Source: Candidatus Parcubacteria bacterium (GTDB lineage: Bacteria > Patescibacteriota > Minisyncoccia > Phycocordibacterales > UBA918). Taken from it: a DNA stretch of 39,360 bases. Numbering within the stretch: position 1 is the first letter of the stretch; the number at the start of each line of letters is the position of its first letter. Below are positions 5,551 through 18,743 of the stretch, in pieces. Below the pieces are notes generated by a model. That model searched no databases. It saw only the letters and a program-made list of their open reading frames with translations, and was not told the DNA's origin. The stretch lies in NCBI GenBank assembly GCA_009995385.1, contig JAACPT010000005.1:1-39360 (forward strand), read 5' to 3'. The translations under genes were made by a program, and so were the position numbers.

Positions 5551-7323
5551 TTATACGTTTACCTCAGCTATTAATTTCATACTCAAGGCTTCGATGGTGA
5601 GTAATTCTGACTCACCAGTGTCACGAGATTCGAGGGTGATTGTTTTACTTTCGACTTCTTTATCGCCAATCACAATAAAGTAAGGAAGTCTCATCTGTTT
5701 GGCGCTGCGAATTTTCTTTCCCATTGATTCATTGGAAGTATCGAGTGTTACTCGGAATCCAGTTGCTCTAAGTGTTTCGGCTACTTCGGTGGCATACGTG
5801 ACATGAGTATCAGCAACGGGAATGACAGCGAGCTGCGTTGGACAGAGCCAGAGTGGGAAGTTACCAGCAAAGTGTTCAATCATGATTGCCATAAAGCGTT
5901 CGAGTGAACCAGCAATTGCGCGGTGAATCATCACCGGTGTTTGCTTCTTACCCGCATTGTCTGTGTACTCCAAATTAAAGCGCGCTGGCATATTGAAGTC
6001 GAGCTGAGCGGTAGCGAGTTGTCGCTCACGACCAATTGCATCTTTAAACATGAAGTCAAGCTTTGGTCCATAAAAAGCAGCTTCGCCTTCGACCCGCTTG
6101 TAAGGAAGGTTGAGACGTTTTGCTACTGCTTCGAGCATTTGTTCCGCCTTTTCCCAGTTTCCTCTTTCGCCAATATACTCGTCGGGTTTGGCTGGATCAC
6201 TCACTGAGAGTGATACCCAGAATTTTCCTTCTTCAAACATACCAAGAGAGGTATAGAACTGCTTGATGACGTTTACAATGTTCTCTACTTCTTGGTCAAT
6301 TTGATCGACGGTACAGAACACGTGCCCATCGTCCTGTGTGATACTGCGTACTCGACCAAGACCAATGAGTTCGCCAGCTTGCTCATCACGGTAGACCATA
6401 GTGGTCTCAGCAAAGCGAAGGGGTAGTTCTTTGTATGATCGAGGTCTGGCGTCGTAAATCTGAGTATGATGCGGACAATTCATTGGCTTCATGACAAACT
6501 CAGTATCAGATTGACCCTTCACATGGAAAAGTTCGTCTTTAAATTTTTCCCAGTGCCCGGAGGTCTTGTAGAGATCACTTTTGGTGATGTGTGGAATAGT
6601 TACCTTTACATATCCATACTTAGCTTGAATCTGGCTGATTTTTTCGACAATCAGATCACGCATAAGGGTACCATTCGGAGTGAAAAGTGGCAGCCCGGCG
6701 CCAACCAGTTCGGAAAAAGTAAAGAGGTCAAGTTCTTTGCCAAGTTTACGGTGATCACGTGCTTTAGCTTCTGCTTGTTGCTTTTCGTAGGCTTCGAGTT
6801 CTTCTTTGGTTTCAAAAGCAAGACCGTAAATGCGAGTGAGCATAGGATTTTTTTCATCACCGCGCCAGTAGGCGCCAGCAATTTTTTCAAGTTTGAACGC
6901 GTCGGTGTCTAGTTCATTGTTGGGGTGTTCAGTGTGTCCACCGCGGCAAAGATCGGTAAAACCACCACAAGAGTAAAGGGTAATCGTCTCACCCTTTTTT
7001 TCAATCTCATCGATAAGTTCAAGTTTGAATTGATTGCCTGCAAATATCCCACGTGCCTTTTTTGCAGAAACTTCTTCGTGGGTGAATGTGGTCCATTTGT
7101 TGAGCAGTTTCTTCATTGACCTTTGCAGTTCTTTGAGATCGGTATCACCAGGAGTATCGCCTCCAGAAAAATCGATATCGTAGTAAAAACCAGTATCAAT
7201 GGCTGGACCAAGGGTGAGCTTGGCGTGTGGATATTTTTCTAACACTGCTGCTGCCAAGAGGTGAGCGAGCGTGTGTCGTTTATGTTCTAATGATTCGTTC
7301 ATAGATTTGACTTGATTGCACAT
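5551..7323 (-). CDS. thrS: Threonyl-tRNA synthetase lacking an N-terminal TGS domain
   Basis: Class II motifs: MKPMNCPHHTQIY, LRFAETTMVYRDEQAGELIGLGRVRSITQDDGHVFC; editing domain HTLAHLLA...CRGGHTEH. Confidence 0.97.
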   Translation of the reverse strand: MCNQVKSMNESLEHKRHTLAHLLAAAVLEKYPHAKLTLGPAIDTGFYYDIDFSGGDTPGDTDLKELQRSMKKLLNKWTTFTHEEVSAKKARGIFAGNQFKLELIDEIEKKGETITLYSCGGFTDLCRGGHTEHPNNELDTDAFKLEKIAGAYWRGDEKNPMLTRIYGLAFETKEELEAYEKQQAEAKARDHRKLGKELDLFTFSELVGAGLPLFTPNGTLMRDLIVEKISQIQAKYGYVKVTIPHITKSDLYKTSGHWEKFKDELFHVKGQSDTEFVMKPMNCPHHTQIYDARPRSYKELPLRFAETTMVYRDEQAGELIGLGRVRSITQDDGHVFCTVDQIDQEVENIVNVIKQFYTSLGMFEEGKFWVSLSVSDPAKPDEYIGERGNWEKAEQMLEAVAKRLNLPYKRVEGEAAFYGPKLDFMFKDAIGRERQLATAQLDFNMPARFNLEYTDNAGKKQTPVMIHRAIAGSLERFMAIMIEHFAGNFPLWLCPTQLAVIPVADTHVTYATEVAETLRATGFRVTLDTSNESMGKKIRSAKQMRLPYFIVIGDKEVESKTITLESRDTGESELLTIEALSMKLIAEVNV

Positions 7324-7597: not shown

Positions 7598-7795
7598 AAA
7601 ATTAATAAATCGCCCAAGTGAATGTACGAAAACTTCGTACGCTCACTCGGACGATTTGGGAATCGCGGTTCCACCGAGCTTCCGTCTGGTATGCCAGACG
7701 GCGCTTCATTATGACAGATTAGAAGGGAAGTGATTCCACATGACGACACGCGAAGCGTGCTATCTGGCGATTGGTGGTCGCCACAATCTCCGTTT
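7598..7795 (-). promoter_or_regulatory. T-box riboswitch leader (antiterminator/terminator) upstream of thrS
   Basis: Minus strand CUCGG-UGGAACC-GCGAUUcccaAAUCGU-CCGAG antiterminator (7679-7645) with canonical 7-nt UGGAACC bulge; preceding 8-bp Stem III (CCGUCUGG CAUA CCAGACGG, 7701-7682); overlapping terminator hairpin 7657-7607. 5' end estimated from the promoter. Confidence 0.88.
7607..7657 (-). terminator. T-box terminator hairpin
   Basis: aaatcgtccgagtgagcgtacgaa gtt ttcgtacattcacttgggcgattt followed by attaatttt; deviations from perfect pairing are G-U wobbles on the minus strand plus one C/A mismatch. Confidence 0.8.
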
Positions 7796-7800
7796 GTCTA

Positions 7801-7828
7801 ATCTTAGCTCGTTGATTGAGATTGTCAA
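7801..7828 (-). promoter_or_regulatory. Promoter of the T-box/thrS transcript
   Basis: Minus strand TTGACA (7828-7823), 16-nt spacer, TAAGAT (7806-7801), starting 3 nt after the dnaE stop codon. Confidence 0.7.
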
Positions 7829-7831
7829 ACA

Positions 7832-10800
7832 TCACCGTATTTCGGAGAGAGGTTCGCCAATCATTTCATCGTTGCCGAGGAGTTTTACCTTATCAATTAG
7901 GATACTTGGCTCATCATTACGGAGGTTAAATTTGCCTTTAATAGCGACACAATTGCCAGGCACAAGTAATTCACGATTATCATGATACGTTTCAGGAAAG
8001 GCAACTGTCTCGATACTGTCGTCTTGGTCAGTAAGTTTAATGAATGCCATTCGGTCGCCTTTTTTGGTGAGGAGCTCCTTTACTGATTCGACTAGCCCAG
8101 TGGTCACGACGGTGGTACCTTGATAGCCTTTCTTAATCTGGGTGATACGGGGACGTTTTTCTACCTCAGCTCGTACTGCATCGAGGGGATGTCCGGAAAC
8201 ATATACACCAAGCAATTCTTTTTCCCAGAGTAATTTCTGCCCAATGGAGATTTTTTCAGTCGGAGTAAGTACCAACCCGCTCAACTCGGTGAATCCTCCA
8301 AAGAGCGAGTCTTGCCCGGTTTCTTTGCTAGAGACGTGCTCTCGATTGAACGCAAGCAAGTTTTCGAGGTTGCCGTAGAATTGACTCCGACTGCCAAAAT
8401 TATCAAACGCTCCAGCGCAGGTAAGCGCTTCAAGTGATTTTTTGTTGAGTCCACGATCCTGGATGCGAGTGAGGAAATCTTGCATTGAAGTAAATGGTCC
8501 ACCTTGTTTTCGTTCTGTAATGATGAATTCGGCGATACCTTCACCAAAGTTCTTTATGGTTGTCAGTCCAAAGCGAATGGTATTTTTGTTGGGCACTACT
8601 GAAAAGTCTTCAAATGATTCATTGATATCAGGTGGCAGTACTTCTATACCCATTCGCTCACATTCGTGGATGATTTCAGAAATCTTTTCAGTATCACCTG
8701 AATCAGCGGTAAGTACTGCCGACATATATTCAACCGCGTAGTTTGCTTTCATATAGGCAGTTTGATACGCAACGCGACCATAACTTGCAGCGTGCGCCTT
8801 GTTAAATCCGTACGCCGCAAACGGCTCGATGAGTTTCCATAATTGCTCTGCTTTGGTATTGGTGAGTCCGTGTGCGAGGAATCCTTTAAAAAGTTTGTCT
8901 TTTTCTGCCGCCATAACCTCAGGAATCTTCTTACCCATCGCTTTACGGAGTTTATCTGCTTCTAGCCACGAATAACCAGCGAGTTTGATGGAAGTCATCA
9001 TGACGTCATCCTGATAGGTAATGACTCCGTATGAGCGGTCGAGGATATCTTCCAAGCGCGGATCAAGGTATGTCACCAACGACGGATTGTGTTTGCGCTC
9101 GATGTAGGTTGGAATCATTTCCATTGGTCCTGGGCGATAGAGTGCCACCATCGCATTAATGTCGTGAATAGTTGAAGGACGCAATTGTTTGAGGAAGGCA
9201 GTCATGCCAGAACCATTGAGTTGGAAAAGTCCCATTGTCTCACCGCGCGCGAGCATGGCAAAAGTTTTTTCATCATCAAGTGGAATCGCTTCGATGTCAA
9301 TTTTCTGGTGATGGATTTTTTCAACCCGCTTTACCGCGTCGGCGAGGATGGAAAGGTTTTTGATTCCGAGGAAATCGAACTTGAGGAGACCAACGCCATC
9401 CTCACCGACACTCTTCATTTCATACTGAGTGATAAGCTTTCCGGTCTTTGGATCGGGTTGTACCGGTACGAACTGGTCAAGCGGAAGTGGGGCAATCACC
9501 ACTCCTGCCGCGTGTACTCCGAGATGTCGTACTCGACCTTCAATCTGTTTGGCAAGATCAATAACCTCACGACTTTCGGCATCTTTTTTATACAATTCAG
9601 CCAAGTCTGGTTCGATCTCGAGCGCTTTGGTAATCGTCATTGGAAAACCCTGGCTACCCATCGGGATTAGCTTTGCGATGCGGTCACCAGTTGTGTAGGA
9701 ATGACCGAGTGCACGCGCGACATCACGCACTGCCGCGCGTGCCATCATGGTGCCGAAGGTACCGATTTGCGCTACTTTATCTGCTCCGTATTTTCTTTTT
9801 GCATAGTCAATTATTTCATCGCGCCGATTATCAGCATAGTCCATGTCGATATCAGGTGCGGACGGTCGTTCAGGGTTGAGGAAACGTTCAAACGGTAGTT
9901 TGTATTCAAGTGGATTTACATTGGTAATCCCTAACACGTAGGTCGTCAGCGATCCTGCCACCGAACCTCGAATGGTAGTGAGGATACCTTGTTCACGTGC
10001 TTCTCGGATGAGGTCTCCTACTACGAGGAAATAGCTTGCGTATCCCTTCATCTTGATGACATCGAGTTCGTAGGTGAGACGTTGCTTTAACTCTGGATCT
10101 TCCGGATTAAGTCCACGCCAGAGGACTCCTTCCCAGGCGGTGGTGTGTAACTCATCGTCAGGTTCACGGCCACTTTCGATAATGTAATCAGGAAAGTACC
10201 AGTGCGTGCCGATTTCTATTTCTACGTTGCATTCTTCGGCTATTTTTAGGGTATTTGCTATCGCTTCAGGGACAGTAAGAAACCACTCCTTCATTTGCGC
10301 TTGGGTAGTGAAAGAAAAGTTCTCTCCCGTATCGTGGTCGGCAGTAGTATCAACCACACCACCACTTTGGATTTTGAGCATGGTTTCTCTTGCGAGACGG
10401 TCTTCTGGTTTTAAATAGTACACGTCTTGTGCTGCTACTAAGGGAGTATTGGTTTCTTTAGCGAGTGCTTTGATACGAACTTGATTTTCTTCATGACCGA
10501 AGACTTCAGGGTGGTGCGAAAGCTCAAGGTAACAATTGTCTCCAAATAGTCGCTTGTACCAATCAAGACGTTCAGCAGCTTTCTCAGGATTGTGATCCTT
10601 GAAGGCTTGAGCAATCTCACCGGAAAAAGAGGGGATAATACAAATTAAATCTTCTCTAAATTTTTCCAGTAATGCTGCGTCGATGCGTGGTCGATAATAA
10701 AATCCTTCGAGATTAGAAGCTGTGACCAGCTTGATCAGATTTTGATATCCTTGAAAAGTTTTAGCAAGTAAGACTACACGGGAGCGTGGCTTGTCGATAT

Positions 10801-18161: not shown

Positions 18162-18743
18162 TTGAATACTTTAAAGCAATGGCTATTGGCAACGGTAGCA
18201 GCGGTGGTGGTGTCAACAGCTTCGGCGACGGTCGTGATGACCGACGGTACATTGGTGGTCTATGACCCTAATGAAACGTATGTGGCAAGCGGGGTGCTCG
18301 GCCCGGCTCCAGCAGGGAGAATTTCTTCCTTCAGTATTGGTTGGACTTACGCAGACCCAAGCTACATCAATCAGATTACGGTGCAAGCACCAAGTGATTT
18401 GGTGGGTTACTTGTTGTTGGGTGTCTCTGCGGGCATCGACGGAAGTGGTCTTACATACGGCGGTGCGGCTCTGTTGGCTGGTGAAAGCGTATCGATTGCG
18501 ATGGGTGGATTTCCACAGGCGTCAATAAGCAAACCTGTAAGCCAGTGGTTCTCCATGGTCGCTCGCGATATGCCCACGCCAATTGCTTTTGGTCCTGGTG
18601 TCGGTGGCGGAAATGTTGTCGGTCTTCCAAACGATAATTTGGTCTCACCGGTGCCTGAGCCATCGATGGCCCTGTTGTTTGGGGCCGGACTTCTGGCAGT
18701 CGCCTCGGTAACCAAAAGACGCCGCCATAAGCTGTATGAGTAG
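18162..18743 (+). CDS. PEP-CTERM sorting-domain protein
   Basis: Signal peptide MNTLKQWLLATVAAVVVSTASA; C-terminus VPEPSMALLFGAGLLAVASVTKRRRHKLYE; TTG start with GGAGG SD at 18151-18155. Confidence 0.88.
   Translation: MNTLKQWLLATVAAVVVSTASATVVMTDGTLVVYDPNETYVASGVLGPAPAGRISSFSIGWTYADPSYINQITVQAPSDLVGYLLLGVSAGIDGSGLTYGGAALLAGESVSIAMGGFPQASISKPVSQWFSMVARDMPTPIAFGPGVGGGNVVGLPNDNLVSPVPEPSMALLFGAGLLAVASVTKRRRHKLYE

Follow-up and report, generated by a model that had tools for sequence, protein, structure and literature searches.

A predicted T-box riboswitch with a reduced Stem I ahead of thrS in a Parcubacteria genome

Known T-boxes and the thrS leader

A 2008 survey placed T-boxes in Firmicutes, Actinobacteria, Chloroflexi, Deinococcus and two Proteobacteria (PMC2494555). 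Class II T-boxes were searched for only in Actinobacteria in TBDB (PMC7778990), and a 2025 riboswitch survey makes no mention of Patescibacteria (PMC12452182). No paper on T-boxes in CPR, Patescibacteria or Parcubacteria was found in open-licence full texts; Rfam-passing CPR T-boxes may sit in databases uncommented. The class I T-box (RF00230, Bacillus subtilis thrS and glyQS) shares with the thrS leaders described here (the thrS class) a specifier codon, a Stem III with RRRxG...AA flanks, a UGGNACC antiterminator, a terminator and a synthetase gene downstream. Missing from the thrS class are a K-turn frame, Stem II and the long Stem I that binds the tRNA elbow, and its specifier sits in an apical loop rather than an internal bulge. 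In Bacillus subtilis glyQS Stem II is missing too, although a long Stem I is retained. As Sherwood 2015 is cited in PMC7583486, the ultrashort T-boxes before ileS in Actinobacteria (Mycobacterium tuberculosis ileS) have in common with the thrS class a short Stem I, an apical specifier and no elbow module. They also have a K-turn, a Stem II S-turn and a Stem IIA/B pseudoknot and are mostly translational, whereas in the thrS class no such element is seen and the leader closes with a terminator.

The window, meaning the whole stretch of 39,360 nucleotides analysed, contains a dnaE-thrS spacer on the minus strand, with dnaE ending at 7832. Judged from sequence and comparison, positions 7598-7828 (minus strand) are a genuine T-box riboswitch ahead of thrS, made up of a promoter, a leader, an antiterminator and a competing terminator (Table 1). 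The sequence, fold and covariation meet the broad T-box definition of a UGGNACC bulge in a two-helix antiterminator, and the flanked Stem III, the cognate specifier, the discriminator-complementary bulge base and the mutually exclusive terminator are met as well.

Table 1. Predicted features of the thrS leader in the window
Feature	Position	Strand	Basis
-35 TTGACA, directly past the dnaE stop	7823..7828	-	sequence
-10 TAAGAT, spacer 16 nt	7801..7806	-	sequence; conserved promoter placement
Closing helix P1, 5' strand ACGGA, pairs with 7714-7718	7789..7793	-	alignment of 34 leaders
Conserved GAUUG, just 3' of the P1 5' strand	7788-7784	-	alignment of 34 leaders
Specifier hairpin UGGCGA-CCACCAA-UCGCCA	7765..7783	-	two-sided changes in 34 leaders; fold
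ACC, the Thr specifier, within the 7-nt apical loop; complements anticodon GGU of own tRNA-Thr	7773..7775	-	codon scan; tRNA
Variable hairpin within P1, neither sequence nor length conserved	7742..7764	-	alignment
P1 3' strand, in conserved CUAAUCUG(U) element	7714..7720	-	alignment, covariation
Stem III, 8 bp, CCGUCUGG/CCAGACGG	7701-7694 / 7689-7682	-	sequence
Stem III with flanks AAGCG ... AA, fits RRRxG-Stem III-AA T-box motif	7680..7706	-	sequence; motif PMC7583486
Antiterminator GCUCGG-UGGAACC-GCGAUU...AAUCGU-CCGAGU; UGGA complements tRNA-Thr UCCA	7645..7679	-	sequence, covariation, fold, U73
Terminator hairpin reusing antiterminator 3' half (AAUCGUCCGAGUGAG)	7607..7657	-	fold; 37/42 leaders with U-run
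U-tract after terminator, AUUAAUUUU	7606-7598	-	sequence
thrS, regulated gene, start 7323 or 7301	5551..7323	-	NCBIfam TIGR00418, 662.9 bits

An inferred transcription start lies near position 7794, at the first helix. A TTGACA-like/TANNNT pair was found ahead of this helix (P1) in 30/34 thrS leaders compared to 2.8% in shuffles. The -10 ends 6-12 nt ahead of P1, so the transcript would begin at the sensor. In leaders of the thrS class P1 encloses the specifier hairpin and an insert that varies between about 16 and 60 nt, flanked by two conserved motifs, GAUUG and CUAA. The specifier hairpin of the window, loop CCACCAA on a 6-bp stem, had a predicted energy of -8.0 kcal/mol (z -3.8). It was absent from the RNAfold minimum of the full leader and present in the fold ending at the antiterminator. 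The antiterminator folded at -11.5 kcal/mol and the terminator, of about 21 bp, at -30.8 kcal/mol (z -8.8, 0/200 shuffles as good). The two compete for one shared strand and are predicted to be mutually exclusive. A preliminary description of this DNA had listed the promoter, Stem III, antiterminator and terminator overlap; all lie where it had put them, base for base, and the antiterminator folds as it described. It was also right that the terminator reuses the 3' half of the antiterminator.

A U-run hairpin 3' of the antiterminator was present in 37/42 thrS leaders. Together with the well-placed promoter this indicates transcriptional control. The U-tract of the window itself is modest and those of most relatives are longer. 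An exact repeat pattern after the terminators of relatives was suspected and searched for but was not found. The leader meets the apical-loop specifier in a short Stem I of the Actinobacterial type (class II, ultrashort) but, with U-run terminators this frequent among thrS leaders, not its Shine-Dalgarno sequestration. A translational T-box resembling Actinobacterial ileS, in which a Shine-Dalgarno sequence is freed rather than termination stopped, is very unlikely. An apical specifier on a short Stem I is typical of translational T-boxes (PMC7583486), and the aspS T-box of the same genome has GGAGGAG in its competing hairpin and no U-run. Against this stand the strength and frequency of the U-run hairpins and the distance in the window, where thrS starts about 280 nt past the hairpin. 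A transcriptional T-box riboswitch controlling thrS is a prediction held with high confidence, in the absence of binding or transcription data.

At the curated Rfam cut-offs nothing was found in the window. The RF00230 gathering cut-off is 93 bits and a lowered threshold was required; the 2025 survey likewise adjusted this cut-off (PMC12452182). The only meaningful match at the lowered threshold was RF00230 at 7644-7844, over the full model span (31.6 bits, E 2.5e-5), and the locus is not a member of the family as curated. Nearly all Stem I positions were deleted in the alignment, and the absence of most of Stem I as modelled accounts for the weak score. Despite this score, the comparative data below settle the predicted T-box identity.

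Specifier, covariation and match to tRNA-Thr

Hairpins with a YY-codon-A type loop were scanned without selection, supplanting a noisier scan for CU-NNN-A in any hairpin. The apical-loop codon tracked the gene. Among the thrS leaders 36/42 had ACC, with 3 for the runner-up codon; for GAC in aspS leaders the figures were 21/45 and 3, and AUC was present in 7/13 ileS leaders. No other codon rose above 3 in these groups. One exception in the thrS class, L141 (Kaiserbacteria, 2777-2917), has ACG, a synonymous Thr codon. The preliminary description had left the specifier loop unassigned while suggesting that Stem I might be minimal or of a variant form, with ACC codons at GCGACCACCAAUCG. The suggestion was right, and the loop is in the GCGACCACCAAUCGC hairpin, the site it had pointed at.

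The 34 aligned leaders were chosen on ACC, making its invariance there a matter of construction; the independent count is the 36/42 above. Two-sided changes were seen at 6/6 stem pairs of the specifier hairpin, and the outer pair of P1 was A-U in 12 leaders and U-A in 12. Across four helices (specifier hairpin, P1, antiterminator) 95.6% of cells were paired, with 93 two-sided changes compared to 26 in shuffles (0/500 as good). Pairing dropped to 27-37% in slid controls.

The tRNA-Thr(GGU) of the genome has U73 and the anticodon loop AUGGUAA. U73 was present in tRNA-Thr of 30/30 genomes examined, in keeping with the earlier proposal that UGGA would pair with a tRNA 3' UCCA. The GGTGGAACC bulge base was constant (A; UGGA) in 42/42 thrS leaders. 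Elsewhere the bulge base agreed with the expected discriminator, being A for glyS and cysK, C for serS and trpE, and U for ileS, valS and proS. In aspS leaders it was C in 37 and U in 7, and the tRNA-Asp(GUC) of the genome has G73. UACCA could pair with U33-G34-G35-U36-A37 over five bases, and U precedes ACC in 30/34 leaders. The window has C in place of this U, leaving four possible pairs.

No experiment shows a response to tRNA, and gene regulation in CPR is largely uncharacterised, so a terminator or attenuator blind to tRNA, or a decayed relic, can be imagined. It is hardly credible, as codon and discriminator complementarity with covariation across many genera need continuing selection for tRNA pairing. 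Most likely the thrS leader is an ON-switch responsive to uncharged tRNA-Thr, which is likewise inferred without experiment. In the proposed mechanism transcription would begin at the first helix of the leader. ACC in the apical loop would pair with the GGU anticodon of tRNA-Thr, and UACCA might extend this to five pairs, or four in the window. The UCCA end of uncharged tRNA-Thr would pair with UGGA of the antiterminator bulge, stabilising the antiterminator and blocking the terminator, and thrS would be transcribed. The 3' end of charged tRNA could not dock; the terminator would then form and transcription would halt. The binding of tRNA, its geometry and the direction of regulation are inferences only.

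Stem I, Stem II and the source of affinity

A long Stem I with a K-turn and elbow-binding module, as in canonical class I, was not met by the thrS leaders. The K-turn frame was found in only 1/42 and a K-turn-framed Stem I is absent; a K-turn reading of thrS Stem I was rejected on this count. The S-turn strand pair that marks Stem II was found in 0/42 thrS leaders, with single motifs near chance, and a Stem IIA/B pseudoknot was not recognised (motif test only). The term "complete-looking" in the preliminary description was thus too strong, as the leader has neither the canonical long Stem I nor Stem II. The aspS, ileS and serS T-boxes of the phylum have K-turn-framed ultrashort Stems I and enriched S-turn motifs. 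In 31/45 aspS leaders the frame is N3-GA-hairpin-GA, and the apical loop of the hairpin holds the codon. The layout of these T-boxes is close to the Actinobacterial one, except that most have terminators.

A truncated Stem I hardly binds tRNA absent Stem II, and transcriptional T-boxes generally need a long Stem I (PMC7583486). The combination of short Stem I and apical specifier is known from Actinobacteria, where Stem II is needed (PMC7583486). The thrS class unites features that these statements exclude. With no recognisable Stem II, no K-turn frame and no long Stem I to bind the tRNA elbow, affinity would have to come from the loop-loop contact and/or the GAUUG...CUAA junction. This junction looks similar to the known UAA/GAN internal loop, a resemblance that is untested. 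The binding result with truncated Stem I (PMC7583486) counts against the scheme: either there is another source of affinity here or a cryptic substitute for Stem II was missed.

An ordinary T-box with a diverged, unrecognised Stem II or long Stem I, and so an architecture that is not truly minimal, is unlikely but deserves consideration. The variable hairpin within P1 could serve as a reduced Stem II, and the near-invariance of GAUUG...CUAA indicates tertiary structure that has not been read. On the other side, S-turn signatures at or near chance in thrS leaders are enriched in aspS (AGTAGA in 19/44 compared to 3.5 in shuffles) and ileS leaders. The insert falls to about 16 nt in the shortest case (L125), which leaves no room for the arm of a long Stem I, and the RF00230 alignment omits nearly all of Stem I. 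Somewhat favoured, with considerable doubt, is a third T-box architecture specific to thrS of Patescibacteria. It would capture the anticodon by loop-loop pairing (≤5 pairs) without tRNA-elbow contact or Stem II, act on transcription, and belong to a phylum-wide regulon undescribed in the open literature searched.

Distribution in Patescibacteria and significance

The T-box core GGTGGNACCGCG occurs in exactly 2 copies in the 723-kb genome, in the window and ahead of aspS, and a reversed control gave 0. The second RF00230 match in the genome, ahead of aspS, was equal in strength. This aspS T-box (L005, contig C15, 4120-4346) has a K-turn-framed ultrashort Stem I with the loop CGGACA (GAC). Its competing hairpin has no U-run and contains GGAGGAG; next comes a very short ORF (MVLFLFPNSYI), the stop codon of which overlaps the start of aspS. 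Control of aspS may be translational or coupled. Elsewhere in the window, 18162-18743 (plus strand) encodes a small secreted-looking protein whose end, VPEPSMALLFGAGLLAVASVTKRRR, resembles a PEP-CTERM sorting signal, which is unexpected in a CPR genome.

Matches to RF00230 at E<=0.1 were found in 57/117 relatives, none above the cut-off, and at E<=1e-3 in 129/384 genomes of the phylum, 13 above it. The locus is therefore no isolated oddity, since T-boxes are common among Patescibacteria. Sequences were fetched for 76 matches in relatives and 90 others from the phylum; 75/76 of the relatives' matches contained UGGNACC. None of the conditions that would have refuted the original claim held: there is a covariance match, weak as it is, UGGNACC is conserved among relatives, and tRNA-Thr has U73. 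The reading of the locus as a T-box ahead of thrS in an ultrasmall CPR bacterium is thereby supported. By NCBIfam the downstream genes included thrS, aspS, ileS, valS, leuS, proS, argS, tyrS, trpS, alaS, glyS, hisS, lysS and serS as well as argG/argH, trpE/trpB, proB and cysK-like genes. A list of this breadth makes a chance motif untenable. Some loci labelled tyrS were assigned by clustering alone and were left out of the argument. T-boxes ahead of synthetase or amino-acid biosynthesis genes were observed phylum-wide (L210-L299), some with canonical long Stem I. L210, at 126.5 bits, is a full-length canonical element of this kind.

In the order 36/248 genomes had a match to a covariance model of the thrS class, and in the phylum 10/337. 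Of the 17 loci inspected, 15 precede thrS and the two weakest do not. Named carriers were Candidatus Elulimicrobium, Kaiserbacteria, Campbellbacteria, Pacebacteria and Nomurabacteria, with weaker matches in one Komeilibacteria and one Uhrbacteria record. The model had no match in the few named thrS loci outside the phylum, including Helcococcus, which were the sole outside controls. Foreign DNA, whether a Firmicutes contig binned in error or the product of one recent transfer, would agree with the classical home of T-boxes (PMC2494555). It can practically be set aside, since the thrS of Candidatus Elulimicrobium shares 89% identity with this one and has the same leader, and the class is spread through the order as above.

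Two further observations were made at synthetase loci. AAC (Asn) lies in the apical loop of five T-boxes before aspartyl-tRNA synthetase genes (L048, L062, L075, L083, L268), as expected if a non-discriminating AspRS is under tRNA-Asn control. At seven loci (L093, L109, L113, L060, L304, L307, L309) the ORF past the T-box is a ThrRS whose start lies close to the catalytic core (MEERDH...). It seems to lack the N-terminal TGS/editing domains, yet the thrS-class T-box is kept.

The amino acids of CPR bacteria are thought to derive largely from the host, and regulation in the reduced genomes of Patescibacteria is almost unknown. T-boxes, described as mainly a feature of Firmicutes and Actinobacteria, precede synthetase and amino-acid genes throughout this phylum. 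The thrS class is apparently a stripped-down and undescribed shape, kept among relatives, within this large and seemingly unreported set. It lacks both elbow contact and Stem II, one or other of which was thought necessary for tRNA binding. With a leader of about 150 nt, the minimal RNA requirement for tRNA recognition becomes directly testable.
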